Of a DNA stretch of 28,112 nt, positions 5,169 through 23,890 are shown in pieces. A program made the position numbers and the translations under genes. Source of the DNA: a virus. A model generated the notes under the pieces. The model was not told where the DNA came from and did not search any database. It saw only the letters and a list, made by a program, of their open reading frames with translations. Location of the stretch: positions 1-28,112 of the IMG/VR virus record IMGVR_UViG_3300006919_000316; one strand, written 5' to 3'. Numbering within the stretch: the stretch's first letter is position 1; the number at the start of each line of letters is the position of its first letter.

Positions 5169-5928
5169 AATTTTTATTGGCACAAGTAATGATGAAGATA
5201 CTTGGATTGAAAAGATCTATCTTTATAGCCTATTTAGAAATACTAAATCTGACCTAGATATTACTTTTCTACGGCCTAAAAAGTTCCCAGATTGGGATAG
5301 ATGGGGCTGGGGTACTCCTTTTACTTGTTTTAGATATGCAATTCCTGAGCTATGTGGCTTTAAAGGCAGAGCTATTTACACTGACGTAGACCAAATGAAC
5401 CTTAGTGATATTAAGGAGCTTTGGGAAACTGATCTAGAAGGGAAGCCTTTTGGTATGGTATGGGATACCTTTATGGCAAATGGCTCTAAATGGAAGAACA
5501 CACCCTATGAAAGAGGCTGGTGGGCAGATAGCGTAGTATTGATGGATTGCGAAAAAGCGAAAGGCCACATGGCGCCGATAAGCGAAATTGCAAAAGAAAA
5601 AGGAACTTACAAGTGGCCTTTCTTTGAAGGATTGGGCCAACCATTTAGACAAAAGTCCCTACCTTTTGTAAAGCAGCTTGACCCTGTTTGGAATTCGTTT
5701 GATGGACATAATACTTCTCACTTGCCTCCCGTTTTCGATAGGGATAAGCAGCAAATGCTTCCTCTAGAACAAATTAAACAAGTACATTTTACAGCGTTAA
5801 GTACGCAACCTTGGCACCCTATCTACAGCCCCCACGGGAGATCAACGCATCCTAGACAGGATATTATGGAAGTGCTTTGGAGGTATGCCCAGGAGGTAGC
5901 ATGGATCAGCGATCCCCAAAAACTGTAA
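5155..5928 (+). CDS. GT-A-fold glycosyltransferase (GT8-like)
   Basis: 257 residues from the ATG at 5155; an in-frame ATG at 5137 would add six residues inside the upstream gene. The start KIKIFIGTSNDED resembles the first strand of a nucleotide-sugar binding fold, and GRAIYTDVDQM supplies the metal-binding Asp77-x-Asp79 motif of GT-A enzymes. Further features are a Trp-rich acceptor-side segment (residues 106-130) and a late HFTALSTQPWHP segment similar to the second metal-binding region of GT8-like proteins. It should transfer a sugar from a UDP- or GDP-sugar; the acceptor (DNA, protein or glycan) is not evident. It is followed directly by two oxygenases. Confidence 0.72.
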   Translation: MSKIKIFIGTSNDEDTWIEKIYLYSLFRNTKSDLDITFLRPKKFPDWDRWGWGTPFTCFRYAIPELCGFKGRAIYTDVDQMNLSDIKELWETDLEGKPFGMVWDTFMANGSKWKNTPYERGWWADSVVLMDCEKAKGHMAPISEIAKEKGTYKWPFFEGLGQPFRQKSLPFVKQLDPVWNSFDGHNTSHLPPVFDRDKQQMLPLEQIKQVHFTALSTQPWHPIYSPHGRSTHPRQDIMEVLWRYAQEVAWISDPQKL

Positions 5929-6404
5929 GATTACCTGATTTTCTATACGAATGGGCAGAAGAAATACTGGAAACATATCTTCCAGTTCAAGCCCTAACGG
6001 GTGATGGAAAGGGTCGAATGTCCATCACAGAGCATCGTATCTCACTCTGCCGCTATGCGAAGCTAGGCCCCAGCACGCGTATTTACTTTCAATTTCTTGA
6101 AAACTGGATGCGAGAGCTAGGGTACGGAGAAGTAGAGGCAGAAATATTTCAGGTAAGTACATATGAAGAAGGCCATTATTACAAGTGGCATCATGACGAT
6201 GCTTCTCTTACTCAGAGAAAGTGGAGTATGTCTGCACTTATCTCGTCTCCCCATAAGTTCAAAGGCGGAGACCTAGAGTTTGAAAATATTGGTCCTGTTT
6301 TTCTCAAGCAACAAGATGCTATAATATTTCCTAGCGATCTTCGGCATCAAGTTACTCCTGTAACTCAGGGAGTACGACATTCATTGGTGGTATGGTTTAA
6401 ATGA
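5901..6404 (+). CDS. 2OG-Fe(II) oxygenase (PKHD-type hydroxylase-like)
   Basis: 167 residues from the ATG at 5901, chosen over the in-frame ATG at 5877 because AGGAGG stands six bases before it. Iron ligands are His97-x-Asp99 in YYKWHHDD and distal His149 in PSDLRHQVTPV; Arg159 in GVRHSLVVWF binds 2OG. The GGDLEFEN strand and FPSDLRH turn are typical of PKHD/P4Hc hydroxylases. It overlaps the glycosyltransferase by 28 bases and the JmjC gene by four, so the three are translationally coupled. A hydroxylate-then-glycosylate sequence on one substrate is an attractive inference but not shown. Confidence 0.88.
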   Translation: MDQRSPKTVRLPDFLYEWAEEILETYLPVQALTGDGKGRMSITEHRISLCRYAKLGPSTRIYFQFLENWMRELGYGEVEAEIFQVSTYEEGHYYKWHHDDASLTQRKWSMSALISSPHKFKGGDLEFENIGPVFLKQQDAIIFPSDLRHQVTPVTQGVRHSLVVWFK

Positions 6405-7156
6405 CAAAAAGTTATGCAATTCCTTTTGAAGAGCTTCTTCCTATGCCGATGGAAGAATTCCTAGACGAGTACAAAGGCAAAAAGTATTTTATTGCCCGAA
6501 GTGAAGAACCTCGTTTTGCAAATCACTTTTCCTGGCGAGAGCTAGAAATTTATTTGAATGGCGACGGAAGAAACGGGCATAAGCGAATGCCCCAACTTCA
6601 AATTGTCAACATGGAAGGAAAAGGCGGTCGTTACTGCCATAAAAAGGCTCGTCGTAAAGTAGAGCTAAAAGCTATTCATGGAGCGTGGTGGAGAGGTTGT
6701 TCTTTTATTCTGACCCTCAGCGAGTTTCTAAATGAAACACTTTGGACTCAATGTGAAGAATTTGAGCGGTACTATGGTATAGGGCAGGCAAATTTATATT
6801 GTTCGAGTAAGGCAGATGCGGATTGTTTTCCGATTCATGCCGATGGCACAGATAATTTTTTGTTTCATGTGAGTGGAAAAGTTCGCTGGTTTATTTATAA
6901 TGAATTTCAGCACGAATGCAAACCTCAAGAGGCTACCCTGAAACAAGTAATTGATCTAGACGATGGCGATCTTCTCTATCTTCCTAAAAAACTGTATCAT
7001 AAAGTACAAACTCTTAGCCCTCGTATTTCTATCTCGTTTCATTTTAACGAAAGTCCTGACTGGGTAAAAGGTAGACCACAAAAAAGAATGCCCTGGCTCG
7101 ATTATACCAGCGGAATCGAAGAAGAAGTTCAAAGAGTTCTCAAAAATAGTTCTTGA
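6401..7156 (+). CDS. JmjC/cupin-type 2OG hydroxylase
   Basis: 251 residues. The C-terminal half matches the cupin JmjC fold of ribosomal-oxygenase-like hydroxylases: FPIHADGTDNFLFHVSGK gives His146-x-Asp148, and GDLLYLPKKLYHKV gives distal His200, with the usual GDLLYLP turn between. The N-terminal 100 residues are helical and lack an obvious motif. Known relatives hydroxylate His or Arg side chains of proteins, so a protein substrate is plausible. ATGA overlap with the preceding hydroxylase. The last residues KNSS-stop are encoded by the conserved promoter box of P4; its TGA stop lies inside the -35 TTGACA. Confidence 0.82.
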   Translation: MTKSYAIPFEELLPMPMEEFLDEYKGKKYFIARSEEPRFANHFSWRELEIYLNGDGRNGHKRMPQLQIVNMEGKGGRYCHKKARRKVELKAIHGAWWRGCSFILTLSEFLNETLWTQCEEFERYYGIGQANLYCSSKADADCFPIHADGTDNFLFHVSGKVRWFIYNEFQHECKPQEATLKQVIDLDDGDLLYLPKKLYHKVQTLSPRISISFHFNESPDWVKGRPQKRMPWLDYTSGIEEEVQRVLKNSS

Positions 7157-11612: not shown

Positions 11613-12200
11613 ATGAATATTTTTATACTACACGATACCGACATTGACAAGTGTGCCGAGTGGCATATTGATGCTCATATCATCAAGATGCCGCTAGAGG
11701 CTGCACAAATGCTATGTACTGTCCACTGGATTGATAAATTCGTGGGCTATGTACCGAGGAAACTTACGTCTGATGAATGGGGAACAATCTCACAGCGAAA
11801 GTCGGATGCTCCTAGGCATTATCCTTACCTTCCTACTATGTACAATCACCCTTGTACTATTTGGGCACGCACTTCTCAACAAAATTACGAGTGGCTTTTC
11901 TGTTACGCTCTGGCTCTCAATGATGAGTACGGCTATCGTTACGGGGGCAAGTCTCACAAATCTGTTGCAGAAGTGATTCTTAAACTTCCTGATATTTCTT
12001 TACCAAACATCGGACTTACTCCTTTTGCTCAGGCAATGCCAGACGAGTTGAAAAGTAAGGATGCTGTAAAGTCTTATCAAATGTTTTATATGAAGGACAA
12101 GGCAGCCATTAAGAAAGGCTGCACTTGGAAACATCGTGAGAAGCCCGAGTGGTGGGACGAAGAAATTGCAGACTATACTTCTAGGATCAGCGGGCAATGA
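11613..12200 (+). CDS. Conserved phage protein with His-rich N-terminal motif
   Basis: 195 residues. The N-terminus, INIF-like strand, then CAEWHIDAHIIKMPLEAAQMLCTVHW, matches a widespread phage family whose hallmark is Cys-Asp-Lys-His-Val-Val-Lys-Met; here Ile-Asp-Ala-His replaces it. A second block, YNHPCTIWARTSQQNYEWL, then EYGYRYGG, follows. The His/Glu/Trp layout loosely recalls pyrimidine-dimer glycosylases such as T4 DenV, but I cannot confirm homology. The family start matches the ATG, which lies at the predicted transcription start, so the mRNA is leaderless with no ribosome binding site. It overlaps the TauD-like gene by four bases. Confidence 0.72.
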   Translation: MNIFILHDTDIDKCAEWHIDAHIIKMPLEAAQMLCTVHWIDKFVGYVPRKLTSDEWGTISQRKSDAPRHYPYLPTMYNHPCTIWARTSQQNYEWLFCYALALNDEYGYRYGGKSHKSVAEVILKLPDISLPNIGLTPFAQAMPDELKSKDAVKSYQMFYMKDKAAIKKGCTWKHREKPEWWDEEIADYTSRISGQ

Positions 12201-12994
12201 AGATTAGAAAGATCGGATGGGTTACAGAAATCTATGATGTAGATCTGAACACCATTTCTAAAGAAGAAATGCACCAGATTATTATGACTACCGCTACAGA
12301 TTTGGTAGTCGTAATTAAGAATCAGGAGCTTTCTCACCAGAGAGAAGTCGAGTTGTGTAAGTGGTGTGGTGATTGTCACTACATTCTAGCTCCCTTTTCC
12401 AAGCACGTTGCTATCAACGAGTACGTTGTACGAGTAACGGGAGAGAAGAACAAAGATGGGAAAGAAGGACTGTTCGGGCACAAATCAGACCTCGATTGGC
12501 ATTGTAATCAAGCATCAAATGCCAATCGTCATAGTATGGTATGGCTATACGCTGTAAAAGGCTCAAAGGGCAGTACGACTAGCTGGATCAATATGCAGCT
12601 AGCGTATGAAGATTTACTTCCTCAAGTTAAAAAACTACTAGAACCACAGAAGTTTACTTGCGGGTACAAAGTAGGAATGTATACTGAGGAGAGAGAACTA
12701 TTTCCGGAGCATCATTCCCCAAATGAATGGCACCTTGTACATACTAACGAAGCAGGAGTCACAGGATTGTTCTTCCCATTTCTACAGATTATGGGCGGGT
12801 TTAAAGGCGATCTTTTCCAGAAACTAAAGAATCATGTACTTCAAGATAAGTATAGATACGACCATCACTGGGAAGATGGCGATGTGGTTATTAGTGAGCA
12901 GTGGTTGAGCGTACATAAGCGACATTATTTTGAACGTATGGACAAACGACTACTTCATCGAATTGCATTTAACTATCATAAGGCACTATTGTGA
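12197..12994 (+). CDS. TauD/TfdA-like 2OG oxygenase with HxN metal motif
   Basis: 265 residues, the usual TauD-family size. LDWHCNQASN corresponds to the His-x-Asp site but reads His102-Cys-Asn104, so Asp is replaced by Asn. The following GSKGSTTSWINMQLAYEDL matches the TauD strand and helix that contribute the 2OG-binding Thr. Distal His240 (SVHKRH) and Arg255 (LLHRIAFNY) are present. TauD relatives oxidise taurine, alkyl sulfates, herbicides or amino acids. Asn for Asp could weaken or alter activity, as Asp loss does in 2OG halogenases, but Asn is not the halogenase residue (Ala/Gly). ATGA overlap upstream and GTGA overlap with the ligase gene. Confidence 0.8.
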   Translation: MKIRKIGWVTEIYDVDLNTISKEEMHQIIMTTATDLVVVIKNQELSHQREVELCKWCGDCHYILAPFSKHVAINEYVVRVTGEKNKDGKEGLFGHKSDLDWHCNQASNANRHSMVWLYAVKGSKGSTTSWINMQLAYEDLLPQVKKLLEPQKFTCGYKVGMYTEERELFPEHHSPNEWHLVHTNEAGVTGLFFPFLQIMGGFKGDLFQKLKNHVLQDKYRYDHHWEDGDVVISEQWLSVHKRHYFERMDKRLLHRIAFNYHKALL

Positions 12995-13929
12995 CAACTC
13001 CTTGGATTAAATACGTTAAAGACCAATACTACAAAGGTATGCCCGTCATTTCAGATGAAGAATATGATGCGCTTATCAAAGATCATGAAGAAAGTATCGG
13101 GCATAATGTAAATGGTCACAGTGTAAAATTTAAGCACAAGCGAAAAATGTATTCGCTTCAGAAAGTATTTATTGGAGAAACTGAGCCGCCAAACTATGGA
13201 GTGCCTACAGTAGAAACTCCTAAACTAGATGGCGCTGCTATCTCTATTAATTATCTTTATCAATTTTTTGGGTCTGCAATCACTCGAGGAAATGGTGAAG
13301 AAGGTCTAGATATTTCTACCAAGATTCAACATCTAGTACCAAATCTTATCAAGCCGATGATAGACACACATTTCCAGATTACTGGAGAAGTAGTAGCTCC
13401 CAAGACTATTAAGAACGCTAGAAATTATGCGGCAGGTGCTCTTGGCTTAAAAAGTGTAGACGAATTTAAAGAAAAGGATCTAACTTTTATTGCCTATGAC
13501 ATTTGGCCTCGTCCTAGAGAAACTTTTACAGAGAGCATGAAAGTTCTTTCTGATTGGGGGTTTAAGACAGTTTTAGATGGACCGTGGGACGAGTTTCCCC
13601 AGGACGGAAAGGTAATCCGAGTAGATAATTATGATCATTTTGAATCCTTGGGATATACAGCTCATCATCCACGTGCTGCGTATGCTCTCAAAGAAAGAAA
13701 ACACGGAGTAGTAACAAAACTAATTGACGTTGAGTGGAATACTGGCAAAAGCGGAGTAATCACACCGACAGCAATCCTAGAGCCCGTAGAAATTGACGGA
13801 GCAGTAGTATCTCGAGCAACATTGCACAATATCGAATATATTCGTAGTCTTGAATTAGAGATTGGGTGCAATGTTGAAGTTATTCGTAGTGGAGAAATTA
13901 TTCCTAGAGTGGTCCGTAAATGTCCGTAG
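12991..13929 (+). CDS. ligA: NAD+-dependent DNA ligase, N-terminal half (adenylation + OB)
   Basis: 312 residues. It starts in a shortened Ia domain (YYKGMPVISDEEYDAL), then the nucleotidyltransferase domain: catalytic Lys78 in PKLDG, TRGNG (98-102), TGEVV (131-135), NARNYAAGALG, and motif V around 237-255. An OB-fold part follows (TPTAILEPVEIDGAVVSRATLHN, then GCNVEVIRSGEIIPRVVR). It stops there, exactly where an intact LigA continues into the zinc finger. The missing zinc finger, HhH and BRCT parts occur as a separate gene at 17751. The two halves probably assemble in trans. GTG start overlaps the TauD-like stop; the nuclease gene at 13920 overlaps its end. Confidence 0.93.
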   Translation: MTTPWIKYVKDQYYKGMPVISDEEYDALIKDHEESIGHNVNGHSVKFKHKRKMYSLQKVFIGETEPPNYGVPTVETPKLDGAAISINYLYQFFGSAITRGNGEEGLDISTKIQHLVPNLIKPMIDTHFQITGEVVAPKTIKNARNYAAGALGLKSVDEFKEKDLTFIAYDIWPRPRETFTESMKVLSDWGFKTVLDGPWDEFPQDGKVIRVDNYDHFESLGYTAHHPRAAYALKERKHGVVTKLIDVEWNTGKSGVITPTAILEPVEIDGAVVSRATLHNIEYIRSLELEIGCNVEVIRSGEIIPRVVRKCP

Positions 13930-14285
13930 GCGTATATAACGAAACTTACTTTGCAAGTCGTCCTGAAGAACGAGAGCGAGAAGGAGTACTTTACGGCGTC
14001 ATTCTAGTAAACAAAACTACATTTGAACGCGAATGTATTAAAGTTGGAATTGCTAGTGGAAAAGACTGGCGGCATGTTATTAAAAGGAGCAGAGGCTTTA
14101 CAGGATATGATCTTCGAATTCAACGAACTTATTCTGCTACACTCTATGAAGTATTCCAAGAGGAGCAAAGACTACACAAAGAATTTGCTGCGGATAAATT
14201 CCATCCTTCTCATAAGTTTGGCGGTCATACTGAGTGTTTTAGAATTGACAGTAAAATCTTAAATAGCTTCCCTAAAAAACGATGA
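13920..14285 (+). CDS. GIY-YIG-superfamily (T5orf172/MUG113-like) nuclease domain protein
   Basis: 121 residues. GVLYGVILV (22-30) is the first strand with a GIY-like Tyr; KVGIA (41-45) the second (YIG-like); then Arg51, a helix with Tyr76, acidic EVFQEEQRLHKEF (77-89) and FGGHTECF (100-107), the block typical of T5orf172/MUG113 domains. No DNA-binding module is attached. It starts inside the end of the ligase N-half, at the exact place where the ligase gene is interrupted, a classic position for a free-standing homing nuclease or its remnant. Nuclease activity and mobility are inferred from family and location only. Confidence 0.7.
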   Translation: MSVGVYNETYFASRPEEREREGVLYGVILVNKTTFERECIKVGIASGKDWRHVIKRSRGFTGYDLRIQRTYSATLYEVFQEEQRLHKEFAADKFHPSHKFGGHTECFRIDSKILNSFPKKR

Positions 14286-14875
14286 AAAAAGTACAAAAAC
14301 CGATAGTAATTATTCCGTCCGAAACAGATCATTGTAACTTTATCGGAATAGCAAGAAATTACTGGAATAATGATTTTATAGATCATGTTTTAGATGATGT
14401 AGTTTCTTGGCGTCCCGTAAAAGTAAAATACGGAAAAAGAGAAGTTGCAAATATAGCTTCAGGAATCGCTTACAACAAAGGTGTACTTTCAGCGATAAGA
14501 GCTTTTAATAAAAAAACTTATAGAGTACCTGACCTACAAAATAACACTATAACTACAGCAATTTATAGATACAATACCCCAGGAGACGAATATACCTGGC
14601 ACCAAGACATTATCTATAATCTTCAAATGTTAAAAAATTGGGAAAGAATTAGAAGATACTCTGCTGTAATAATGTTAAGTGATCCCGAAGATTATGTAGG
14701 TGGAGAGTTTTACATTGAAGGACATAAAGACCCTATAGAATTACGAAAAGGGGATCTTTTAATTTATACTGCTATTCACGCGCATAGAGTTGCCCCTCTT
14801 ATTTCGGGAACTAGAATGACTTATTGTGTTTGGATGGAATCTAGACATTATGCGCATACTTTGGAAGTTCAATAA
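14282..14875 (+). CDS. 2OG-Fe(II) oxygenase
   Basis: 197 residues with a full ligand set: His107-x-Asp109 in EYTWHQDI, distal His168 in IHAHRVAPL and Arg178 in GTRMTYCVWM. VGGEFYIEG and RKGDLLIYTA are the expected strands between. The N-terminal 60 residues are family-variable. It overlaps the GIY-YIG gene by four bases and is followed directly by a methyltransferase and a carbamoyltransferase, so hydroxylation could create the acceptor for a carbamoyl or methyl group. That order is inference. Very A/T-rich codons with mostly AGA arginine. Confidence 0.87.
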   Translation: MKKVQKPIVIIPSETDHCNFIGIARNYWNNDFIDHVLDDVVSWRPVKVKYGKREVANIASGIAYNKGVLSAIRAFNKKTYRVPDLQNNTITTAIYRYNTPGDEYTWHQDIIYNLQMLKNWERIRRYSAVIMLSDPEDYVGGEFYIEGHKDPIELRKGDLLIYTAIHAHRVAPLISGTRMTYCVWMESRHYAHTLEVQ

Positions 14876-15445
14876 TTGAAACTGATTAGTAACTATTATA
14901 TTAAGCAACTAGAAACTTTGCATGATACTCGAAAAAATTTTGGTATCTTTGGAGGTAGAACTACTCTAAAAGATATTCAGCCTTGGATTGATAAGTATCA
15001 GCCCAAGACTTTTATAGATTATGGTTGTGGAAAAGGAGTGCTAGTTAAGCTTCTGCAAGAACAGTACGGACATTGTATTGGATATGATCCTGGGTATGCT
15101 GAATTTAGAGAGAAGCCTTTAGAGCCTGCGGAAATGCTAGTATGCACAGATGTTCTAGAGCATATTGAGCCAGAGTATCTAGACAATGTTTTGAAACATA
15201 TTGATAGTCTGTTTACTAAAGTTGCTTACCTATATATTGCTACTTCAGCCGCTGCTAAGCTTTTACCGGACGGTAGAAATGCTCATTTAATTGTCGAAGA
15301 AGACACTTGGTGGCGACCTAAACTACTAAAACATATCAAAGCAAAAATTATAGATCAAAAATATATTTTTAGTCAATGGCTATCTCAAAAAGAACAAGTG
15401 TATAAACCTGCTAATAAATACGTTGTGGTATTGGAAAAACAGTGA
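14876..15445 (+). CDS. Class I SAM-dependent methyltransferase
   Basis: 189 residues from TTG 14876, directly after the upstream stop. TFIDYGCGKGVLVKLL (residues about 45-60) is SAM-binding motif I; IGYDPGYAEF carries the acidic end of strand 2; LVCTDVLEHIEPEYL (about 88-102) is the post-I region; DGRNAHLIVEEDTWW near 139-153 is shared with the methyltransferase at 23298, so the two are paralogs. The general Asp-Val-Leu-Glu-His signature is common in small-molecule and glycan methyltransferases; the target is unknown. GTGA overlap with the carbamoyltransferase. Confidence 0.82.
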   Translation: MKLISNYYIKQLETLHDTRKNFGIFGGRTTLKDIQPWIDKYQPKTFIDYGCGKGVLVKLLQEQYGHCIGYDPGYAEFREKPLEPAEMLVCTDVLEHIEPEYLDNVLKHIDSLFTKVAYLYIATSAAAKLLPDGRNAHLIVEEDTWWRPKLLKHIKAKIIDQKYIFSQWLSQKEQVYKPANKYVVVLEKQ

Positions 15446-16806
15446 AAGTATTAGGAATTAGTGAAGGGTTTCATGATGCAGCAATCGCAGTAGTAGACTC
15501 GGACACTGGTACAATAAACTTTGCTACACATACTGAACGGTATACTCGAATTAAAAATGATCCGAGTATTCCGGATAAATTACTTCGTAGCACTCCTCAT
15601 GACTTTAGAGTATACTATGAAGATATTTCATTAAAGAATCAAAGGAGAATGATACATGGGCAAGGCCCCGTATATTCAGCTAATGCAGAACTTGCAGATG
15701 ACTTCGTATCGCACCACGAAGCTCATGCAGCAGCCGCTTACTATACCTCTCCTTTCGATTATACTGGATGCGTTATCGCAGTAATTGATGCAATAGGCGA
15801 GTGGGCAACTGCTAGTATTTGGAAACCAAGCCCCAGCGGGTTAATATTGGTTGAGGAGAAATTTTACCCTTTCTCTTTGGGATTATTTTACAGTGCGATC
15901 ACCAAACGAATCGGACTACGACCTAACGAAGATGAGTACATTACGATGGGGATGGCTGCTTTTGGGAATCCCTGCATTGACATGGGGGATTGTTTTAGCC
16001 GCAATCTTCATCGAGGTTTTTCGCTAAACGACTTTAAAGGGCATCGACCCGAGGATATTGCAGCAAGTGCTCAAGCTGCAATTGAAGAAAAAATTCTGGA
16101 ATTTATTACGCCCTGGAAACCTATGGGACGAAACCTTTGTTATGGGGGCGGAGTTGCACTCAATTGTGTAGCTAACTCTAAACTTAGAGCGCATTTTGAT
16201 AATGTTTGGATTATGCCAAGTCCCGGTGATGCTGGAAGCTCTCTCGGAGCTGCTCTTGGGTACCTTAAACAGAAAGTTCCTTTTCAAGACACTTATTTGG
16301 GGTATGACATTGACAGACCGATTAATCCTAGAGAAGTTGCTCAGTACCTTGCCAAAAAAGGAGTGGCCGGAGTCGCGCATGGTCAAGCTGAGTTTGGTCC
16401 TCGCGCACTTGGCAATCGCAGTTTGTTGGGCGATCCTCGTATATCAGATATTAAACGTAAGTTAAACAATGTAAAACGACGCCAAAAGTTTCGTCCTTTT
16501 GCTCCTGCTATTCTTAGTGAGTTTGCAAACGAGTATTTTGAAGGCCCTATGAATGAATATATGCAATTCGTAGCCGAAGCAAAACATAATTATGAAGGAG
16601 TTACTCATGTGGACGGAACTGCGCGAGTGCAGTTAGTACCGCAACATAGTCGCTCAGTATTTCGACAAATTCTAGAAGAATTTTATGAAATCACAGGAGT
16701 GCCCATGCTTCTGAACACCTCTTTGAATATCAAAGGGCAACCAATGGTAAACAATGAGCAAGATGCTCTAGACTTTGAAAAGAAGTATAAGGTAAAAGTG
16801 TTTTGA
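15442..16806 (+). CDS. Carbamoyltransferase (NodU/CmcH/TobZ family)
   Basis: 454 residues from GTG 15442. The N-terminal Kae1-like half has the GFHDAAIAVVD opening, the iron-site SHHEAH cluster (His91, His92, His95), VIAVIDAIGE and GGGVALNCVANSKL (235-248). The C-terminal YrdC-like half has EFGPRALGNRSLLGDPR (317-333), KRRQKFRPFAPAIL, VDGTARVQ and the terminal LLNTSLNIKGQPMV. All main blocks are present, though it is shorter than TobZ-type enzymes (about 570), as usual in phages. It makes carbamoyl-adenylate from carbamoyl phosphate and ATP and transfers it to a hydroxyl; phage relatives modify hydroxymethylated bases. It overlaps the SGNH-like gene by four bases. Confidence 0.93.
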   Translation: MKVLGISEGFHDAAIAVVDSDTGTINFATHTERYTRIKNDPSIPDKLLRSTPHDFRVYYEDISLKNQRRMIHGQGPVYSANAELADDFVSHHEAHAAAAYYTSPFDYTGCVIAVIDAIGEWATASIWKPSPSGLILVEEKFYPFSLGLFYSAITKRIGLRPNEDEYITMGMAAFGNPCIDMGDCFSRNLHRGFSLNDFKGHRPEDIAASAQAAIEEKILEFITPWKPMGRNLCYGGGVALNCVANSKLRAHFDNVWIMPSPGDAGSSLGAALGYLKQKVPFQDTYLGYDIDRPINPREVAQYLAKKGVAGVAHGQAEFGPRALGNRSLLGDPRISDIKRKLNNVKRRQKFRPFAPAILSEFANEYFEGPMNEYMQFVAEAKHNYEGVTHVDGTARVQLVPQHSRSVFRQILEEFYEITGVPMLLNTSLNIKGQPMVNNEQDALDFEKKYKVKVF

Positions 16807-17564
16807 TTTACTTTAATGGATGTAGCTTTACATATGGGTATGAGCTAGGAAGTATTTTTGCGTCTAGATTCTCTAGGTTAGTCTCAGATACTTTTGGCGA
16901 AAAAGAATGGAATAACGCAAAAGTAGGTTCTTCAAATGCTAGAATTTGGAGAACTACAATGACGGACGTTATTTTAAAGAAGCCTAAACTTGTAGTAATT
17001 ATGTGGAGCGGACCAAACAGAGAAGAATTTTTTCAATATGCTCGAGGAAAATGGGGCTGGAAAAATGCTACCTGGAAAAACTATACTGTAGATAAAGATA
17101 CTCTACAGGCAAATTCAAAGTGTAATTCTAGTAAAAGCGTAGATCAAAGTAAGGTACACTATGACAGTCTTAATAACTATATGAAGAATGTCAAAAACGT
17201 GCCCTGGAATCTTAGGTATACTCTACAGTACATGCTAAGTGTAAAGTATTTTCTAGAAGCAATGGGCGTTCCCTATTTGTTCTATACTTTTTCTAGAACT
17301 CAATATGTAAATTATTTGGATATTTTAGATTGGGAAACGTGGGATTGTACTAGCGCTGATAGCGTTTCGATTGAATTATCCAAAGACCAAATCTTAAAAG
17401 AGCTTCCTTTTATTCAAGAGCCAGGCTTTTACGATTACTGTAAAATGCACGATCTACCGATTGGCCTAAAAGATCATCCTTTAGAAGAAGCTCATGAGTG
17501 GATGGCTAATAAAATTGTAAAGGATATAAAGAAAAATGGGTTGGATAAAAGATTTACTGGATAG
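16803..17564 (+). CDS. SGNH/GDSL-hydrolase-like protein
   Basis: 253 residues from TTG 16803. Block I is YFNGCSFTYG (Ser8), block II AKVGSSNARIW with Gly and Asn, block III-like VVIMWSGPNREE, and block V DHPLEEAHEWMAN (Asp224, His225), giving the catalytic elements of the SGNH fold. This phage type, with GCS instead of GDS, is common near glycan genes and may act as an esterase or an O-acyl- or group-removing/transferring enzyme on glycans. It closes the cassette inserted in the ligase. The middle (85-130) is Asn/Lys/Trp-rich. Active-site geometry is inferred from motifs only. Confidence 0.68.
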   Translation: MIYFNGCSFTYGYELGSIFASRFSRLVSDTFGEKEWNNAKVGSSNARIWRTTMTDVILKKPKLVVIMWSGPNREEFFQYARGKWGWKNATWKNYTVDKDTLQANSKCNSSKSVDQSKVHYDSLNNYMKNVKNVPWNLRYTLQYMLSVKYFLEAMGVPYLFYTFSRTQYVNYLDILDWETWDCTSADSVSIELSKDQILKELPFIQEPGFYDYCKMHDLPIGLKDHPLEEAHEWMANKIVKDIKKNGLDKRFTG

Positions 17565-17673
17565 CTGTTCTAGAAAAATACGAATAAAGTATTTTGAGTG
17601 GAGGCTGCGAAAAGTTTATAAAGAAGATACCTACGTCTACGAAGAAGATCAAAATTTTGATGCAAAGAATTGA
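17536..17673 (+). CDS. 45-residue basic microprotein
   Basis: Small frame starting MGWIKDLLDSCSRKIRIKYF inside the end of the SGNH gene (29-base overlap) and ending 22 bases before promoter P7. It is amphipathic and basic at the N-terminus, then Tyr/Glu/Asp-rich. Openings of the type Met-(Gly/Ser)-Trp-hydrophobic-Lys-Asp-Leu-Leu are frequent, from memory, in microproteins of marine phages. No transmembrane segment; it may lie on the membrane. Function unknown. Confidence 0.55.
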   Translation: MGWIKDLLDSCSRKIRIKYFEWRLRKVYKEDTYVYEEDQNFDAKN

Positions 17674-17695
17674 GGCAGCTTCCCGAAAAAAGTTC

Positions 17696-17724
17696 TTGAC
17701 ATAAGTTCAAAGTTTCGATATAAT
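17696..17724 (+). promoter_or_regulatory. Sigma70-type promoter P7
   Basis: TTGACA 17696-17701, 17-bp spacer, TATAAT 17719-17724, shared AGTTCTTGACA box. Predicted start near 17731. It drives the ligase C-terminal half and the HTH gene at 18518, up to the terminator at 19255. Confidence 0.92.
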
Positions 17725-17750
17725 ATATAAATAGAAATGAGGAGAAGCAA

Positions 17751-18512
17751 ATGTTCGAGATTCAAATGCCTACGGAATGCCCTGCTTGCAGCGCTCCCGT
17801 TGTTTTTGAAGATCCGCAGCTCTTTTGTACTAACAAGGACTGTTCTGCTCAATGGCAGAAAAAACTCGAGCACTTTGCTTCAACTCTCAAGATTAAGGGA
17901 CTTGGCCCTGCAACTTTGCATAAGTTGGAACTCCAAGAATACACAGACCTCTATGCGCTTTCTGTTGAGGAGATTTCAGAAACACTAGGCTCTGAAAAGC
18001 TGGCACAAAAACTAGTCCAAGAAATAGAAAAGTCTAAACAGGCCGATCTAGAAACTGTGCTACCAGCTTTTTCTATTCCGCTTATCGGTCAATCTGCTTC
18101 TAAAAAGTTATGCTCTGTAGTATCTTCCATTGAAGATATTACCGCCGAAACCTGTGAAGAAGCCGGTATTGGTCCGAAAGCCACAGCCAATCTACTGGAT
18201 TGGTTAGATGAAGAGTTCTTTGCATATGACCTAGATAAACTTCTTCCTTTTGATTTTAAGACGAAAAATGTTGCCACCATTAGTGGTCCTTGTGCTGGTA
18301 TTATTTGTATCAGTGGAAAACTAAGTTCGTTCAAAACCAAGGCTGAAGCACAGAGGTATTTAGAAAACTACGGTTATGTAGTAAAAACCAGTCTTACAAA
18401 AGACTGTACTCACCTTGTAAATGAGTCTGGCATTGAATCTGCCAAAACACGAACAGCTCGGGAACGGGGTGTTCAGATTGTTGAAAACTTACTGACGTTT
18501 ATTGGAGAATAA
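17751..18512 (+). CDS. ligA: NAD+-dependent DNA ligase, C-terminal half (Zn finger, HhH, BRCT)
   Basis: 253 residues. Zinc finger with Cys10, Cys13, Cys26 and Cys31 (CPACSAP ... FCTNKDCSAQW), helix-hairpin-helix repeats (about 45-165; LKIKGLGPATLHKL, ETLGSEKLAQKLV, IPLIGQSASKKL, GIGPKATANLL), and a BRCT domain (about 182-253; GIICISGKLSSF, GYVVKTSLTKDCTHLV). This is the half missing from the gene at 12991. It starts with its own ATG behind GAGGAG and promoter P7, so it is a planned separate polypeptide, not a frameshifted tail. It binds nicked DNA and should complement the adenylation half. The halves are 3.8 kb apart. Confidence 0.93.
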   Translation: MFEIQMPTECPACSAPVVFEDPQLFCTNKDCSAQWQKKLEHFASTLKIKGLGPATLHKLELQEYTDLYALSVEEISETLGSEKLAQKLVQEIEKSKQADLETVLPAFSIPLIGQSASKKLCSVVSSIEDITAETCEEAGIGPKATANLLDWLDEEFFAYDLDKLLPFDFKTKNVATISGPCAGIICISGKLSSFKTKAEAQRYLENYGYVVKTSLTKDCTHLVNESGIESAKTRTARERGVQIVENLLTFIGE

Positions 18513-18517
18513 CTATA

Positions 18518-19234
18518 ATGGCTCTACCTAAGTGGACTGACGAGCGTACCGCACAACTCGCATCGCTCGTTGATGGTGAAAGCCCCGTTTCCCAAGCTAC
18601 GGTCGCACAAGCAGCAGAAGATCTCGAAACCTCTGTTCGTTCTGTGTCCTCCAAGCTCCGGAAAATGGGCTATGATGTTGAACTTGCTTCTGCTGGTGCA
18701 GGCAAGTCTTTTAGCGAAGATCAAGAGGCAACTCTTGCTGCCTTCGTGCAGGATAACTCTGGTACTTATACCTATGCAGAAATTGCTGAGCACTTTGCTG
18801 GCGGCGAGTTCTCTGCTAAGTCTATCCAGGGCAAAATCCTTTCTATGCAGTTGACCGCTCATGTGCGTCCCGCTCCGAAAGTGGAAGCAGTGAAAACCTA
18901 CACTGACGAAGAAGAAGCCCAGTTTGTGGCTCTCGTCAATGACGGTGCTTTCATCGAAGACATTGCAGCAGCAATGGGTCGTGAAGTCAACTCGATTCGG
19001 GGTAAAGCTCTTTCGCTCCTGCGTGCAGGCACGATTGCAGCTATTCCGAAGCAGCGTGAAACCAAAGGCACGAGCAAAGCCGATCCCCTGGCTGATCTCG
19101 ATATTGCCGGTATGACTGTTGAAGAAGTCGCAGAAGCTATTGGCAAGACGGTGCGTGGTGTTAAGACCATGCTGACTCGTCGCGGCCTGGCTTGCGCAGA
19201 CTACGACGGTTCTGCTCGTAAAGAACGAGTCTAA
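18518..19234 (+). CDS. Repetitive HTH DNA-binding protein (probably abundant)
   Basis: 238 residues with three or four Myb/HTH-like repeats, each with an acidic/aromatic first helix and a recognition-like helix: KWTDERTAQLASLV ... RSVSSKLRKMGY; FSEDQEATLAAFV ... KSIQGKILSMQL; YTDEEEAQFVALV ... NSIRGKALSLLR; and MTVEEVAEAIGKTVRGVKTMLTRRG. From memory, this protein type is conserved in marine podophages near the helicase gene. Codons are clearly G/C-richer, with CGT arginine, than those of the decoration genes, and a strong terminator follows, so high expression is likely. Probable role: coating or organising phage DNA, or broad regulation. It starts five bases after the ligase half. Confidence 0.75.
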   Translation: MALPKWTDERTAQLASLVDGESPVSQATVAQAAEDLETSVRSVSSKLRKMGYDVELASAGAGKSFSEDQEATLAAFVQDNSGTYTYAEIAEHFAGGEFSAKSIQGKILSMQLTAHVRPAPKVEAVKTYTDEEEAQFVALVNDGAFIEDIAAAMGREVNSIRGKALSLLRAGTIAAIPKQRETKGTSKADPLADLDIAGMTVEEVAEAIGKTVRGVKTMLTRRGLACADYDGSARKERV

Positions 19235-19287: not shown

Positions 19288-19301
19288 CTTTGGGAGAGAA
19301 C

Positions 19302-20669
19302 ATGGCAATTGAGAGCGCGCTGCTCAAGCAACTTTTATCGCATAACGATTTTGAGACTTGGAACCGGCTAAAGCAACACTATCTACCCGAGGGCGACTAT
19401 CAAAAGCTCTGGAAGATAGTGGACAAGCACGTCCATAAGTTTCAAGCTCTACCTTCGTTTGAGGATCTCAAATACGAAGTGCGTTCGCGCGAGCTTCAAG
19501 AAAAGATTTATGCGATAGAGGCTGTCGAAACTGAAACACCAGCTTTCGAGCTTCTAGAATACCTCAAAGATCAATTTACTCAAGGCGAGATTCTTGCTAA
19601 AATTGAGTATTACCTTGATAATACGATTTCTGTAGCAGATGCTAAAGAGAATATTGATGCACTACAAGAAATCGTAGTCCAAGTACAGGATCGAGTAGAT
19701 ACTTCCATTGATAGTGAAACTATGGAAGATATTGAGCTATTTGATTCTGAAGAAGAACTATCTAAGTACTTGCCTCTCGGCTTGAATAGTGACTATGACG
19801 CAAATTATTCCTTCTCTCCCAGAGACTTGGTCGTTGTGGGTGCTCAACGTGGTCATGGAAAGTCATTTACTTGCTGTAATATTGCAGTAAACGCCAGAGA
19901 ACGAGGACATTCTGTACTTTACTTTACTATCGAAATGGATGCTCGCCCAATCTTGCAGCGTATGGCTTCAATGAGTACGGGTATCCCTCTCGGTCGCCTT
20001 ATGAAACGAAATCTCTTTGATAAAGAGTGGCAGCGAATTGGAGAATGGTGGGCAGATCGTTTTGAAGGAGCTAATGAGCTTTTATCTAAGTATGATCTCT
20101 CCCAAGAATTTGATAAGTTTCACTACGATCTCTCTAGAAACTATACTCTGAAGCGCGAAAATCAGATGGACGTCTTTTACGATCCTTCTCTAACTCTAGC
20201 AAAGATTATTAGTACAGTGAGGCAAAAGAAAGTACAATATCCTGATCTCGGACTAGTAGTAGTTGACTATCTAAACCAGGTTAAGCGCCACAACGCTCCA
20301 AGTAAAGGAAACGGGCAATATGATTGGACTGAGCAGATTGAAATTAGTAAGGGCCTCAAGGCTCTAGCACAAGAACAAAACTGTCTTGTAATTTCTGCTT
20401 TCCAAACTGACGTTCAGGGCAATGCTCGATTCTCAAAGGGTATTCTTGACGCAGTAGATGCTGCTTATACCCTTCAGCATTGGGGCAGAGAAGAAAACTG
20501 TATGAAGTTCCGCTGCGATAAAATGAGAAGTGGAGAAATGCAATCCTTTATCTCTGAGATTGATTGGGACTGTCTCAAGATTGGTCCTAACAGCGCAATA
20601 GACCCTGACGAGCGACAGAAGATGAAGGAAGAAATGATGGGAACTGGCGAAAGCTATGCTGACTTATGA
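19302..20669 (+). CDS. Replicative DNA helicase (DnaB-type, RecA fold)
   Basis: 455 residues from ATG 19302, chosen because GGGAGAG stands just upstream; a TTG at 19290 would add four residues. It has an N-terminal helical domain (1-150), then the RecA motor: Walker A GAQRGHGKS (about 180-188), IEMDARPILQRM (H1a-type), Walker B LGLVVVDYLNQ (about 315), a glutamine-sensor block VISAFQTDVQGNARF, and the C-terminal KFRCDKMRSGE arginine-finger-like region. It unwinds the fork 5'-3' as a hexamer and should work with the separate primase at 23898. It begins after a terminator with no visible promoter, so it relies on read-through or an undetected start. Confidence 0.92.
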   Translation: MAIESALLKQLLSHNDFETWNRLKQHYLPEGDYQKLWKIVDKHVHKFQALPSFEDLKYEVRSRELQEKIYAIEAVETETPAFELLEYLKDQFTQGEILAKIEYYLDNTISVADAKENIDALQEIVVQVQDRVDTSIDSETMEDIELFDSEEELSKYLPLGLNSDYDANYSFSPRDLVVVGAQRGHGKSFTCCNIAVNARERGHSVLYFTIEMDARPILQRMASMSTGIPLGRLMKRNLFDKEWQRIGEWWADRFEGANELLSKYDLSQEFDKFHYDLSRNYTLKRENQMDVFYDPSLTLAKIISTVRQKKVQYPDLGLVVVDYLNQVKRHNAPSKGNGQYDWTEQIEISKGLKALAQEQNCLVISAFQTDVQGNARFSKGILDAVDAAYTLQHWGREENCMKFRCDKMRSGEMQSFISEIDWDCLKIGPNSAIDPDERQKMKEEMMGTGESYADL

Positions 20670-21387
20670 TAAATCAGGCTATGACCCTAACAGATGCGCT
20701 CTGTTTGAGGTAGATGTAGACGAAAAAATTCTAAGCATACTACCTCCTGATCAAAGTGTAGGGCGTTGGTTGAATCACAATAAAACTCGAATTGCTTGGA
20801 GACTATATTACTTCATAGATTCAGTTCTTCGAGAAGGCTTCGTTGACCCTATCTTAATTTGGGGCGATATTAGAAAGAAGAAAATAAAAATACACCCAGG
20901 GTTGAATAGAGTGCAATTGCGGTCTCTGCTTCCTGAAAGACCTTTAAAGGGATGGGTGGTTGATTTTCATTGCAAGAATAGAAATCAATATGCGGGGCTT
21001 TTTAATGGTATCAAGCCTCTAGAAAGAAATGCTAAAGGAAATAGAGATATTCCTTGGAGAATGCAACATAGAGGTAATGTTCCAAAAGAGTGGGAAGATC
21101 AGTTTGATCTTCATCTTGCACAGAGTTTATTTGTAACGCATATCCCGTTAAAAGACAAATACCTAACCGACAAATGGGATTTTCTTTCTAGAAGAACGGG
21201 ATTTACGCCTTGGGTAGCAGATAAAAAGTTTTATAGTATTGGAACTGCCCATAGCAAAGAAGATCACTACGAAATACTTGATGTGCTAGGCATTTATCAA
21301 CTTGCACTAATTTACTTTTTTAATTATAATCCATGTAGATGGAAAAAGTTATATTACAGGCCAAAATATGAAAGTCAAACTAATTAG
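20656..21387 (+). CDS. ParB-fold protein 2
   Basis: 243 residues. The first 110 residues suggest a ParB-like domain: helix WRLYYFIDSVLREG, a Pro-Ile strand (FVDPILIWGDI), then HPGLNRVQLRSLL at the place of the family's G-x-R block (Asn before Arg). The remaining part (WRMQHRGNVPKEWEDQF ... YNPCRWKKLYYR) is unrecognised and rich in Trp/Tyr/Arg. It overlaps the helicase by 14 bases and ThyX by 20. ParB-like domains bind nucleotides, so a kinase-, nuclease- or regulator-type role is possible; nothing decides between these. The family call is tentative. Confidence 0.5.
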   Translation: MLTYDKSGYDPNRCALFEVDVDEKILSILPPDQSVGRWLNHNKTRIAWRLYYFIDSVLREGFVDPILIWGDIRKKKIKIHPGLNRVQLRSLLPERPLKGWVVDFHCKNRNQYAGLFNGIKPLERNAKGNRDIPWRMQHRGNVPKEWEDQFDLHLAQSLFVTHIPLKDKYLTDKWDFLSRRTGFTPWVADKKFYSIGTAHSKEDHYEILDVLGIYQLALIYFFNYNPCRWKKLYYRPKYESQTN

Positions 21388-22081
21388 TTACAGTGCTCCC
21401 TCAAAAGAGCTTTTTGACGACAACTTGCGAGATTTGCAGGGGCTGATTGCATATGCGGCTCGTGTAAGTAATCCTAGTAATCAAATGAATTCGGAGACTG
21501 CTGAAAAGCTTCTAAAATATCTTATTAAGCATAAGCATTGGTCTCCGTTTGAAATGGTCAGCGTATGTATGGAGATTGAAACTACCCGAGATATTGCGCG
21601 GCAGATATTGCGGCACCGATCGTTTAGCTTCCAAGAATTTTCCCAGCGTTACGCGGACCCAACCACAGATTTAAGTTTTGAACTTAGAGCAACAAGACTT
21701 CAAGATCCTAAAAATCGTCAAAATAGTATTGATGAAGGTATTGACTTTGAATTTGATCTTGAGTGGTCTAGGCGTCAACAAGAAGTAATTGATAAAGCAA
21801 AGGAAGCATATCAATGGGCCATCCAAAATGGTATCGCAAAAGAGCAAGCAAGAGCAGTTTTACCAGAGGGCAATACGGTGAGTCGGATGTATATGAATGG
21901 GACTCTGAGGAGTTGGATTCATTACATCGAGCTAAGAGGAGCAAACGGTACTCAAAAAGAGCACATCGACATAGCTCAAGCGATTGGTAAAGTGATCTAT
22001 GAAATTTTTCCATTCAAGAATCTTATTGAGCATAACGTATGGCATACGATAGAATTAGCCGACAAACGGCAGAAAAAGTAG
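21368..22081 (+). CDS. thyX: Flavin-dependent thymidylate synthase
   Basis: 237 residues, normal for ThyX. The signature RHR-x7-S is present as RHRSFSFQEFSQRY (Arg82 to Tyr95). EQARAVLPEGNTVSRMYMNGTLRSWIHYIELR carries the substrate-site serine and arginine region. The enzyme methylates dUMP to dTMP using FAD, NADPH and methylene-tetrahydrofolate, feeding phage DNA synthesis. No dUMP hydroxymethylase is seen here, so its presence does not by itself point to modified thymidine. It overlaps both neighbours, which are ParB-fold proteins. Confidence 0.96.
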   Translation: MKVKLISYSAPSKELFDDNLRDLQGLIAYAARVSNPSNQMNSETAEKLLKYLIKHKHWSPFEMVSVCMEIETTRDIARQILRHRSFSFQEFSQRYADPTTDLSFELRATRLQDPKNRQNSIDEGIDFEFDLEWSRRQQEVIDKAKEAYQWAIQNGIAKEQARAVLPEGNTVSRMYMNGTLRSWIHYIELRGANGTQKEHIDIAQAIGKVIYEIFPFKNLIEHNVWHTIELADKRQKK

Positions 22082-22560
22082 CAATTCCGCCTCATACATG
22101 GTACACTAGAACACCAGAAGAGCTACTACACGAACCAACTGTCTGGCAAAATATTGGAAATGTGCCGCTAAATGAGCCTCTACTAGAAAGTGTAAAAACA
22201 AGTGGTATTTTAGCTCCTATTCTAGTAATGCCAAACTGGTATCCAATTGTAGGTAGTCAACGAATTCGTGCCTGCTTTGATTTAAAACTGAGAGAGCCTC
22301 ATAGTCCAGTTTTAAATCAACCAATTCGAGTAGCTCGTTTTGATCAGGAATGGTGGAATTGTTTCTACCTTTGGGGAGACAAAGACTTTCGAGATAAAGC
22401 AATTGCAATCTGGTTTCAAATGATTGAGCTTGCCTGGAAAAGTCAACACTATATCGACAAATCAGACCCCAGCGGGGTTGCAATGACCGAATTTGAACGC
22501 ATCGGGGATACTCTCCCCTGGAAACATAAAGGAGTTTTAAGTGAAAATCTTTACTCATGA
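22039..22560 (+). CDS. ParB-fold protein 3
   Basis: 173 residues. The ParB/sulfiredoxin-like core is clear: NVPLNEPLLESVKTSGILAPILVMPN, then YPIVGSQRIRACFDL (G-x-Q/R-R-x-x-A motif) at about residues 40-80. The N-terminus has HTWYTRTPEELL; the C-terminal 90 residues are helical with Trp-rich parts. No HTH domain. It overlaps ThyX by 43 bases and the peroxiredoxin by 20. Same single-domain class as the protein at 4231. Activity unknown. Confidence 0.65.
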   Translation: MAYDRISRQTAEKVAIPPHTWYTRTPEELLHEPTVWQNIGNVPLNEPLLESVKTSGILAPILVMPNWYPIVGSQRIRACFDLKLREPHSPVLNQPIRVARFDQEWWNCFYLWGDKDFRDKAIAIWFQMIELAWKSQHYIDKSDPSGVAMTEFERIGDTLPWKHKGVLSENLYS

Positions 22561-23116
22561 AGATGATCTAGATAGTTATACCGAGTATAGTTGGAATCGG
22601 CTTCCTAAGATTCTACCTAATGTGGTTTTTCAAACGCGAGTGCGTGATGAAAGTATTGAAGGCCCCAACCCTTATCGTTGGGAAGAAAAAAGCACATTCG
22701 ATTTCGTAGCAGGTAAGCGAGTAATTATCTTTTCTCTCCCAGGAGCATTTACTCCTACCTGCTCGACCTATCAACTTCCTGGCTTTGATGAACTTTTTCC
22801 TAAGTTTCAAGAGAAAGGAATTGACGAGATTTACTGCGTAAGTGTAAATGACGCCTTTGTAATGAACAAGTGGTTTGAAGCACAAGGCGTAAAAAATGTT
22901 CAGCCCATTCCCGATGGAAACGCTAAGTTTACTGAAGATATGCAAATGTCTGTTCGTAAAGAAAATCTAGGCTTTGGTATTCGATCTTGGCGTTATGCTG
23001 TTGTAGTAAATAATGGCAACATTGAGTCTTGGTTTGTCGAAGGCGGCAAAGAAGATGACTGTGAAACTGATCCCTATTTCTACACGAACCCGGAGTTTAT
23101 TCTGGAGCAACTATGA
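22541..23116 (+). CDS. Peroxiredoxin (Prx5/redoxin-like)
   Basis: 191 residues from GTG 22541 with AAGGAG upstream. IIFSLPGAFTPTCSTYQLPGF contains the peroxidatic Cys74 in the P-x3-T-x2-C context of the Prx5 type; DEIYCVSVNDAFVMNKW and GFGIRSWRYAVVVNNG (with the conserved Arg) follow. It reduces hydrogen peroxide or alkyl peroxides using a glutathione- or thioredoxin-type donor. The ~50-residue N-terminal extension is unusual. Cys98 and Cys164 (approximate positions) might act as resolving residues. A phage peroxiredoxin could protect replication from oxidative stress, including by-products of many oxygenases; that link is inference. Confidence 0.88.
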   Translation: MKIFTHEDDLDSYTEYSWNRLPKILPNVVFQTRVRDESIEGPNPYRWEEKSTFDFVAGKRVIIFSLPGAFTPTCSTYQLPGFDELFPKFQEKGIDEIYCVSVNDAFVMNKWFEAQGVKNVQPIPDGNAKFTEDMQMSVRKENLGFGIRSWRYAVVVNNGNIESWFVEGGKEDDCETDPYFYTNPEFILEQL

Positions 23117-23301
23117 AATATGGTGAGCTTTTTAAGATTAAAAACTTTCGATTAATGCGCTACCGTAGTGAGAGCGGAGTCTATTTGACTCCGTGTCTCC
23201 GATTTGAAAGAGATAAAACCTGGGGCGAAACACGCCTAACTCTTTCGTTTCTAGTTTGGGACTACTCTTTGGAGCATAATACGCCTTGGGACTTTGAATG
23301 A
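23113..23301 (+). CDS. Small hypothetical protein
   Basis: 62 residues with predicted beta strands (YGELFKIKNFRLMRY, GVYLTPCLRFERD, RLTLSFLVWDY). Unrecognised. It is placed in frame between peroxiredoxin and methyltransferase with four-base overlaps on both sides, which supports it as a real gene. A single small beta domain without signal or membrane segment. Confidence 0.68.
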   Translation: MKYGELFKIKNFRLMRYRSESGVYLTPCLRFERDKTWGETRLTLSFLVWDYSLEHNTPWDFE

Positions 23302-23858
23302 AAATTTCTGATTTTGCTACACAAAGAATGATTGAAGAATACCAGCAAATGCACTCTCGTAAAGATCGACTTTACATGATTGGAGAGCAGACTCTTTATT
23401 GGTGCTGGAATATTCAGGATCTTACTCAGCAGTTTCCTGGTACAAATATGCTTGACTTCGGGTGTGGCAAAGCATACTCTTACAAGGGCAGACACGTTCA
23501 AAGACTCTGGGATATTAATAAAGTAATTCTTTTTGATATTGGTATTCCAGAGTATTCTAAGGCACCTGAGCCCCCTGAGTTTCAGTCTGTAATCAGTATT
23601 GATGTACTTGAACATATTCCTGAAGAAAGAATTGATGAAGTTCTCCAGTATTGGTATAGTGAAGGAACTCAGTTTGTGTTTGCAACGGTAGCCTCTTATC
23701 CTGCTAGAGCTAAGCTTAGTGATGGGACTAACGCTCACGTCACTATTAAGCCCAAAGAGTGGTGGGAAGAAAAAATTCGTAAGTATCAAACGTGCCATAC
23801 TGAGATTATTTATTTAGAAGCGCGTGGACGCGGGGAAAGACTAGTTTTCAAAAAATAG
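23298..23858 (+). CDS. Class I SAM-dependent methyltransferase (paralog)
   Basis: 186 residues. TNMLDFGCGKAYSYKG (about 49-64) is motif I; FQSVISIDVLEHIPEERIDEVL (about 94-115) the post-I/motif II region; LSDGTNAHVTIKPKEWWEEKI (about 136-156) aligns with the methyltransferase at 14876, so the two share a recent family and probably a substrate class. Target unknown. Its stop TAG is part of the AAATAGTTCTTGACA box of promoter P8, four bases before the -35 hexamer. Confidence 0.82.
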   Translation: MKISDFATQRMIEEYQQMHSRKDRLYMIGEQTLYWCWNIQDLTQQFPGTNMLDFGCGKAYSYKGRHVQRLWDINKVILFDIGIPEYSKAPEPPEFQSVISIDVLEHIPEERIDEVLQYWYSEGTQFVFATVASYPARAKLSDGTNAHVTIKPKEWWEEKIRKYQTCHTEIIYLEARGRGERLVFKK

Positions 23859-23861
23859 TTC

Positions 23862-23890
23862 TTGACAACAACTTCCTAGCTTGGTATAAT
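23862..23890 (+). promoter_or_regulatory. Sigma70-type promoter P8 (leaderless output)
   Basis: TTGACA 23862-23867, 17-bp spacer, TATAAT 23885-23890, shared AGTTCTTGACA box. Seven bases separate the -10 box from the primase ATG at 23898, so the RNA should begin at the start codon. Confidence 0.92.

Follow-up and report, generated by a model that had tools for sequence, protein, structure and literature searches.

A probable T5-type two-subunit NAD+-dependent DNA ligase with cargo genes between its halves in an uncultivated marine T5-like phage

A LigA composed of two polypeptides is already established. In phage T5 (Demerecviridae) the enzyme is annotated as subunits A and B, encoded by ligA and ligB (T5.116/T5.117), and the T5 record AY543070 shows the order ligA for subunit A, promoters P-K28b and P-K28a, ligB for subunit B, D5, D6 helicase, HNH, primase and polymerase. 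Sugarland, PR1 and the Vibrio phage D239 share this gene order. Furthermore, the PDB entries 9HU3 and 9I5I hold both chains, and chain B of 9HU3 is 100% identical over the matched stretch to LigB of the Providencia phages PR1 and PSTCR5. As at the locus described here, each entry contains two separate polypeptides, although this Providencia ligase is known to us by its chains and their names alone; in the literature that was accessible to us, searches on split or two-subunit DNA ligases or on 9HU3 returned no relevant paper. The Providencia phage is an isolate, and the 192 bp between its ligase genes bear annotations for a terminator and a promoter but hold no cargo genes, in contrast to the locus analyzed in this work. 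An earlier note on this DNA had seen no precedent for such an arrangement of LigA, a view that the T5 annotation and the two PDB entries overturn. The locus is a new and divergent member of the T5-type two-subunit ligases.

The window, which is the whole IMG/VR record of 28,112 bases and represents a genome fragment, encodes both halves on the plus strand. The ligA-half (12991–13929, 312 aa, GTG start) consists of an N-terminus similar to domain Ia of LigA, the nucleotidyltransferase domain and the OB fold (Pfam DNA_ligase_aden, E = 1.1e-23; DNA_ligase_OB, E = 1.9e-25) and is homologous to T5 LigA (subunit A). The ligB-half (17751–18512, 253 aa, ATG start), a homologue of T5 LigB (subunit B), carries a C4 zinc finger, HhH and BRCT, with matches to BRCT-type domains (6.1e-6 and 2.8e-4) and HHH_5 (4.6e-5); the LigA zinc finger itself matched at 8.6e-4, below the gathering score, and its four cysteines are invariant in 25 sequences. 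Thus, the ligase domains are spread over two polypeptides in the window. PHROGs holds a separate family for each half alongside one for intact LigA, and the two halves fell into phrog_3359 (E = 1.6e-95) and phrog_3498 (E = 1.2e-58), respectively. Profile searches also matched the ligA-half to chain A of 9HU3/9I5I (‘DNA ligase (NAD(+))’, 339 aa, E = 5.6e-106) and the ligB-half to chain B (‘DNA ligase subunit B’, 248 aa, E = 3e-57). In an alignment to E. coli LigA the ligA-half covers residues 27–391 and the ligB-half begins at residue 401, which places the break between the OB fold and the zinc finger. Using tblastn against phage records, LigA was detected in 1,199 records at 1,202 places, approximately one per genome, which makes a second ligase outside the fragment less likely, and the second half in 985 records; the best matches of both halves are T5-like phages, with annotations such as ‘NAD-dependent DNA ligase subunit A’.

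The surroundings of the ligase genes resemble T5 as well. Downstream of ligB follow a homologue of the T5 late transcription factor D5 (18518–19234, plus strand; phrog_323, E = 1.2e-44), which serves as a syntenic anchor, and a DnaB-type helicase at the position of T5 D6 (19290–20669, plus strand; Pfam DnaB_C, E = 4.3e-22). The complete order is ligA, cargo, ligB, D5, DnaB, a second gene block, primase and polymerase, so that the T5 succession of ligA, ligB, D5, DnaB helicase, primase and polymerase is found in the window. The second block (20656–23858) between DnaB and primase contains ThyX, a redoxin, a methyltransferase and others, and at this place T5 has the HNH endonuclease hegJ.

The catalytic residues K78-L-D-G81 (the KxDG lysine motif), E133 (motif III Glu) and K234 (motif V Lys) are invariant in 25/25 aligned LigA halves, as are the zinc cysteines 10, 13, 26 and 31 in 25/25 aligned LigB halves. 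In motif IV the lysine K290 of E. coli LigA is replaced by arginine (R210) in all 25 split LigA halves, and 9HU3 carries arginine there, too. Compared with the nearest relative (L004), dN/dS is 0.07 for LigA and 0.18 for LigB, ratios that point to purifying selection on both. In LigA enzymes, nicked DNA is clamped with the help of the HhH and zinc-finger parts. LigB would therefore be expected to be necessary in trans.

A perfect sigma70-type promoter (TTGACA-17-TATAAT, 12/12 matching positions, 17696–17724, plus strand) is predicted in front of ligB and D5, followed by the ribosome-binding site AGGAG (17740–17744, plus strand) directly ahead of the ATG. Promoters with 11–12 of 12 matching positions lie no more than about 90 nt upstream of ligB in 107 of 113 distinct loci, and the same scan found none upstream of D5 (0/116) or DnaB (0/113). 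In the shortest gaps the near-perfect promoter and the ligB RBS occupy most of the sequence, and the gaps of T5 and PR1 carry annotated promoters. By sequence comparison, the split arrangement thus regularly includes a predicted promoter for the second half, which is conserved. The window contains five perfect plus-strand promoters of the type TTGACA-17-TATAAT (at 1990, 10401, 11578, 17696 and 23862), where 0.02 would be expected by chance; the one at 23862 precedes the primase. Several parts of the earlier note are borne out by these results: open reading frames and Pfam agree that the adenylation and OB half and the zinc-finger/HhH/BRCT half are separate genes, the alignment to E. coli LigA agrees with the proposed break between OB fold and zinc finger, and the second half has its own promoter, RBS and start codon. 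The domain content together with the low dN/dS values also fits the note's picture of two maintained genes that jointly resemble one ligase and are not in decay.

The gap between the halves (13930–17750) measures 3,821 bp and contains five co-directional ORFs, all on the plus strand. The first encodes a GIY-YIG/T5orf172-type endonuclease-like protein (13920–14285, 121 aa), whose start overlaps the ligA stop. It is followed by a 2OG-Fe(II) oxygenase (14282–14875; PF13640, E = 2.5e-10), a class I methyltransferase (14876–15445; PF13489, E = 2.1e-11), a NodU/TobZ-type carbamoyltransferase (15442–16806; PF16861, E = 9.8e-51; PF02543, E = 1.2e-41; phrog_1601) and, paired with the latter, a protein with a DUF6071/SGNH (GDSL-like) hydrolase fold (16803–17564). 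For this last ORF the Pfam matches were DUF6071 at 3.9e-5, below the cut-off, and GDSL at 0.042, and its AlphaFold2 model (pLDDT 93) matched E. coli TesA in Foldseek (E = 2.3e-4). Of 83 sequences, 35 have the carbamoyltransferase and the SGNH/GDSL-fold protein (15442–17564 in the window) together in the gap. In DNA of sewage phages, a carbamoyltransferase has been described that modifies 5-hydroxymethylcytosine and co-occurred with a homologue of thymidylate synthase (PF00303) (PMC8670742); the window encodes ThyX at 21368–22081. Altogether five genes for 2OG-Fe(II), JmjC or TauD-type oxygenases are present in the 28 kb (765–1262, 5877–6404, 6401–7156, 12197–12994 and 14282–14875), which is a striking number. 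Between the window and L004 the identity is 97% for ligA, 95% for the GIY-YIG ORF and 88% for the carbamoyltransferase, but only 63% for the methyltransferase and 55% for the oxygenase. That these two genes (14282–15445) are far more diverged than their neighbors suggests an exchange of modules within the ligase gap. Moreover, lineages differ in the first gene after ligA; in L115 and L075, for instance, it looks thioredoxin-like by eye.

To take a closer look at the relationship between split and cassette, we compiled 88 related viral contigs and isolates with distinct ligB sequences and determined the gap as the distance between the matched halves. The break lies at the same point in all 88, no fused copy occurs among them, and the gaps range from 64 to 5,875 bp; many contigs with gaps down to 64 bp contain no cargo, and T5-type isolates have gaps of 201–446 bp without the cassette. 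As a similar script called 75 bacterial LigA genes fused, the absence of fused phage copies is no blind spot. The four best matches from the GTDB genome collection (46–54% identical, on small MAG contigs) likewise encode the ligA half in an ORF of its own; in two of them ligB lies 52 bp downstream with D5 next, and the other two show no ligB match in the available stretch, which in one case is ended by the contig edge. The matches beyond these four are at most 36% identical and nearly all fused bacterial LigA. The earlier note had proposed that the 3.8-kb cassette split ligA and that related phages might hold an intact ligA at the same locus. One could argue for such an event in this lineage from the cassette sitting exactly in the gap and from the GIY-YIG ORF overlapping the ligA stop. 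Yet relatives without cargo, T5-type isolates included, share the split at the same point and not one of the 88 contigs has a fused copy, so the cassette cannot have made the split and we give this explanation next to no credence. Instead, the comparison indicates that the split goes back to the ancestor of the T5-like group and that the cassette is later cargo. The distribution of the two halves bears equally on the idea that they are decaying fragments of a phage that depends on the host ligase. The window is only a fragment and the remaining genome is unseen, which leaves some room for decay, but with both halves retained at the same locus in 88 contigs, active-site and zinc residues conserved, promoter and RBS conserved and the dN/dS values as low as they are, we consider it highly improbable.

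A further question is whether a nuclease gene, and not the whole cassette, broke ligA. The first ORF of the gap belongs to the GIY-YIG/T5orf172 nuclease family according to its conserved Tyr, Gly, Arg and Glu (Y25, G43, R56 and E82, invariant in 19/19 homologues) and the BFVD fold matches of its AlphaFold2 model (pLDDT 86.7) to T5orf172-type viral models, together with a match to the endonuclease family phrog_681 (E = 1.7e-9). Pfam T5orf172 was matched by 12 of the 19 homologues (best 4.5e-5) but not by the window's own ORF, and Foldseek against the PDB gave no match for the model. The gene is confined to gaps of at least 0.5 kb, every one of which carries it, and in viral contigs the 80 homologues closest to it all adjoin ligB or ligA, with both flanks present where the contig is long enough; the exception is one contig in which no ligA was found in 1.6 kb upstream. 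The ORF may be an old homing nuclease. From this association, and because a phage nrdD interrupted by a homing endonuclease has been reported (PMC4837284), one might propose that a T5orf172-type GIY-YIG homing endonuclease invaded an intact ligA in the common ancestor of T5-like phages and caused the split, and that T5 and the short-gap clades subsequently lost it. However, the gene is missing from 4/4 T5-type isolates checked and from a short-gap marine phage clade, the ORF barely exceeds the nuclease domain with no separate DNA-binding domain evident, and no fused recipient allele is known: relatives without the insert do not have an intact allele (0/88 fused) but are split, too. We therefore find this origin unlikely, if clearly less so than the two explanations discussed before. 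Similarly doubtful is the more far-reaching idea that the gap is a dedicated integration niche, in which a nuclease fixed at the locus, possibly the original gene breaker, would keep the site open and drive both the acquisition and the exchange of metabolic cargo, flanked by two genes of which neither can be missing from the progeny if the ligase is to work.

Very probably, then, the locus encodes a two-subunit NAD+-dependent DNA ligase of the T5 type, carried by an uncultivated marine T5-like phage, and the split came first and the cargo later. According to this model NAD+ would adenylate LigA, which holds the nucleotidyltransferase and OB domains, and LigB, which contributes zinc finger, HhH and BRCT, would associate with it non-covalently to complete the DNA clamp. 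Together they would seal replication nicks, with their genes adjoining those for D5, helicase, primase and polymerase. Fixation of the break between OB fold and zinc finger would predate the divergence of T5-type isolates from marine lineages, ligB would be driven by a strong promoter of its own that also serves the late regulator D5, and the space between ligA and ligB would be a tolerated insertion site. In the marine lineages this gap would first have taken up an endonuclease gene of the GIY-YIG type and afterwards the metabolic cargo, giving rise to the 3.8-kb cassette. The sequences themselves show the homology, the position of the break, the synteny, the conservation of the promoter, the variation of the gap and the purifying selection, and from these we infer the association and activity of the window's own LigA/LigB pair and the order of cargo gain. 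In a phylogenetic tree of 83 ligase sequences, four T5-type isolates and 20 marine sequences have a gap without the cargo genes of the window, 24 carry just the GIY-YIG ORF, and in 35 it is joined by the carbamoyltransferase and the SGNH-like gene; the deep nodes are weakly supported (0.2–0.35), which makes the order of these gains uncertain.

The two-polypeptide LigA of T5 is accordingly a stable and widespread trait that reaches marine T5-like phages and no accident of a single genome, and the causal order is corrected in that the split precedes the cassette. The relatives, whose gaps span 64 bp to 5.9 kb and nearly always keep the type of the ligB promoter, form a useful case of gene addition in a replication cluster without harm. 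What remains of special interest at this locus is the gap as an insertion hotspot with a variable gene block.

Division of a gene into two is also found elsewhere in phages, as in the T4 gene 39/60 topoisomerase and Aeh1 nrdA. These two and nrdD (PMC4837284) share with the ligase family a divided phage gene with a nuclease gene nearby in some members; they differ from it in that many ligase family members are split without a nuclease, and in that an intact allele of the ligase locus is not known. The two halves share their domains, the domain order and the catalytic lysine motif with bacterial LigA (E. coli 2OWO/4GLX), but the latter is one polypeptide, no more than about 36% identical, with the motif IV lysine that is arginine in the split family. 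Phage T5 itself has the same halves, the same break and the same gene order as the window, even if the LigA halves of T5-like phages are at most about 46% identical to that of the window (tblastn) and the T5 gap, which holds two promoters but lacks cargo, comprises about 200 bp instead of 3,821 bp with five ORFs.
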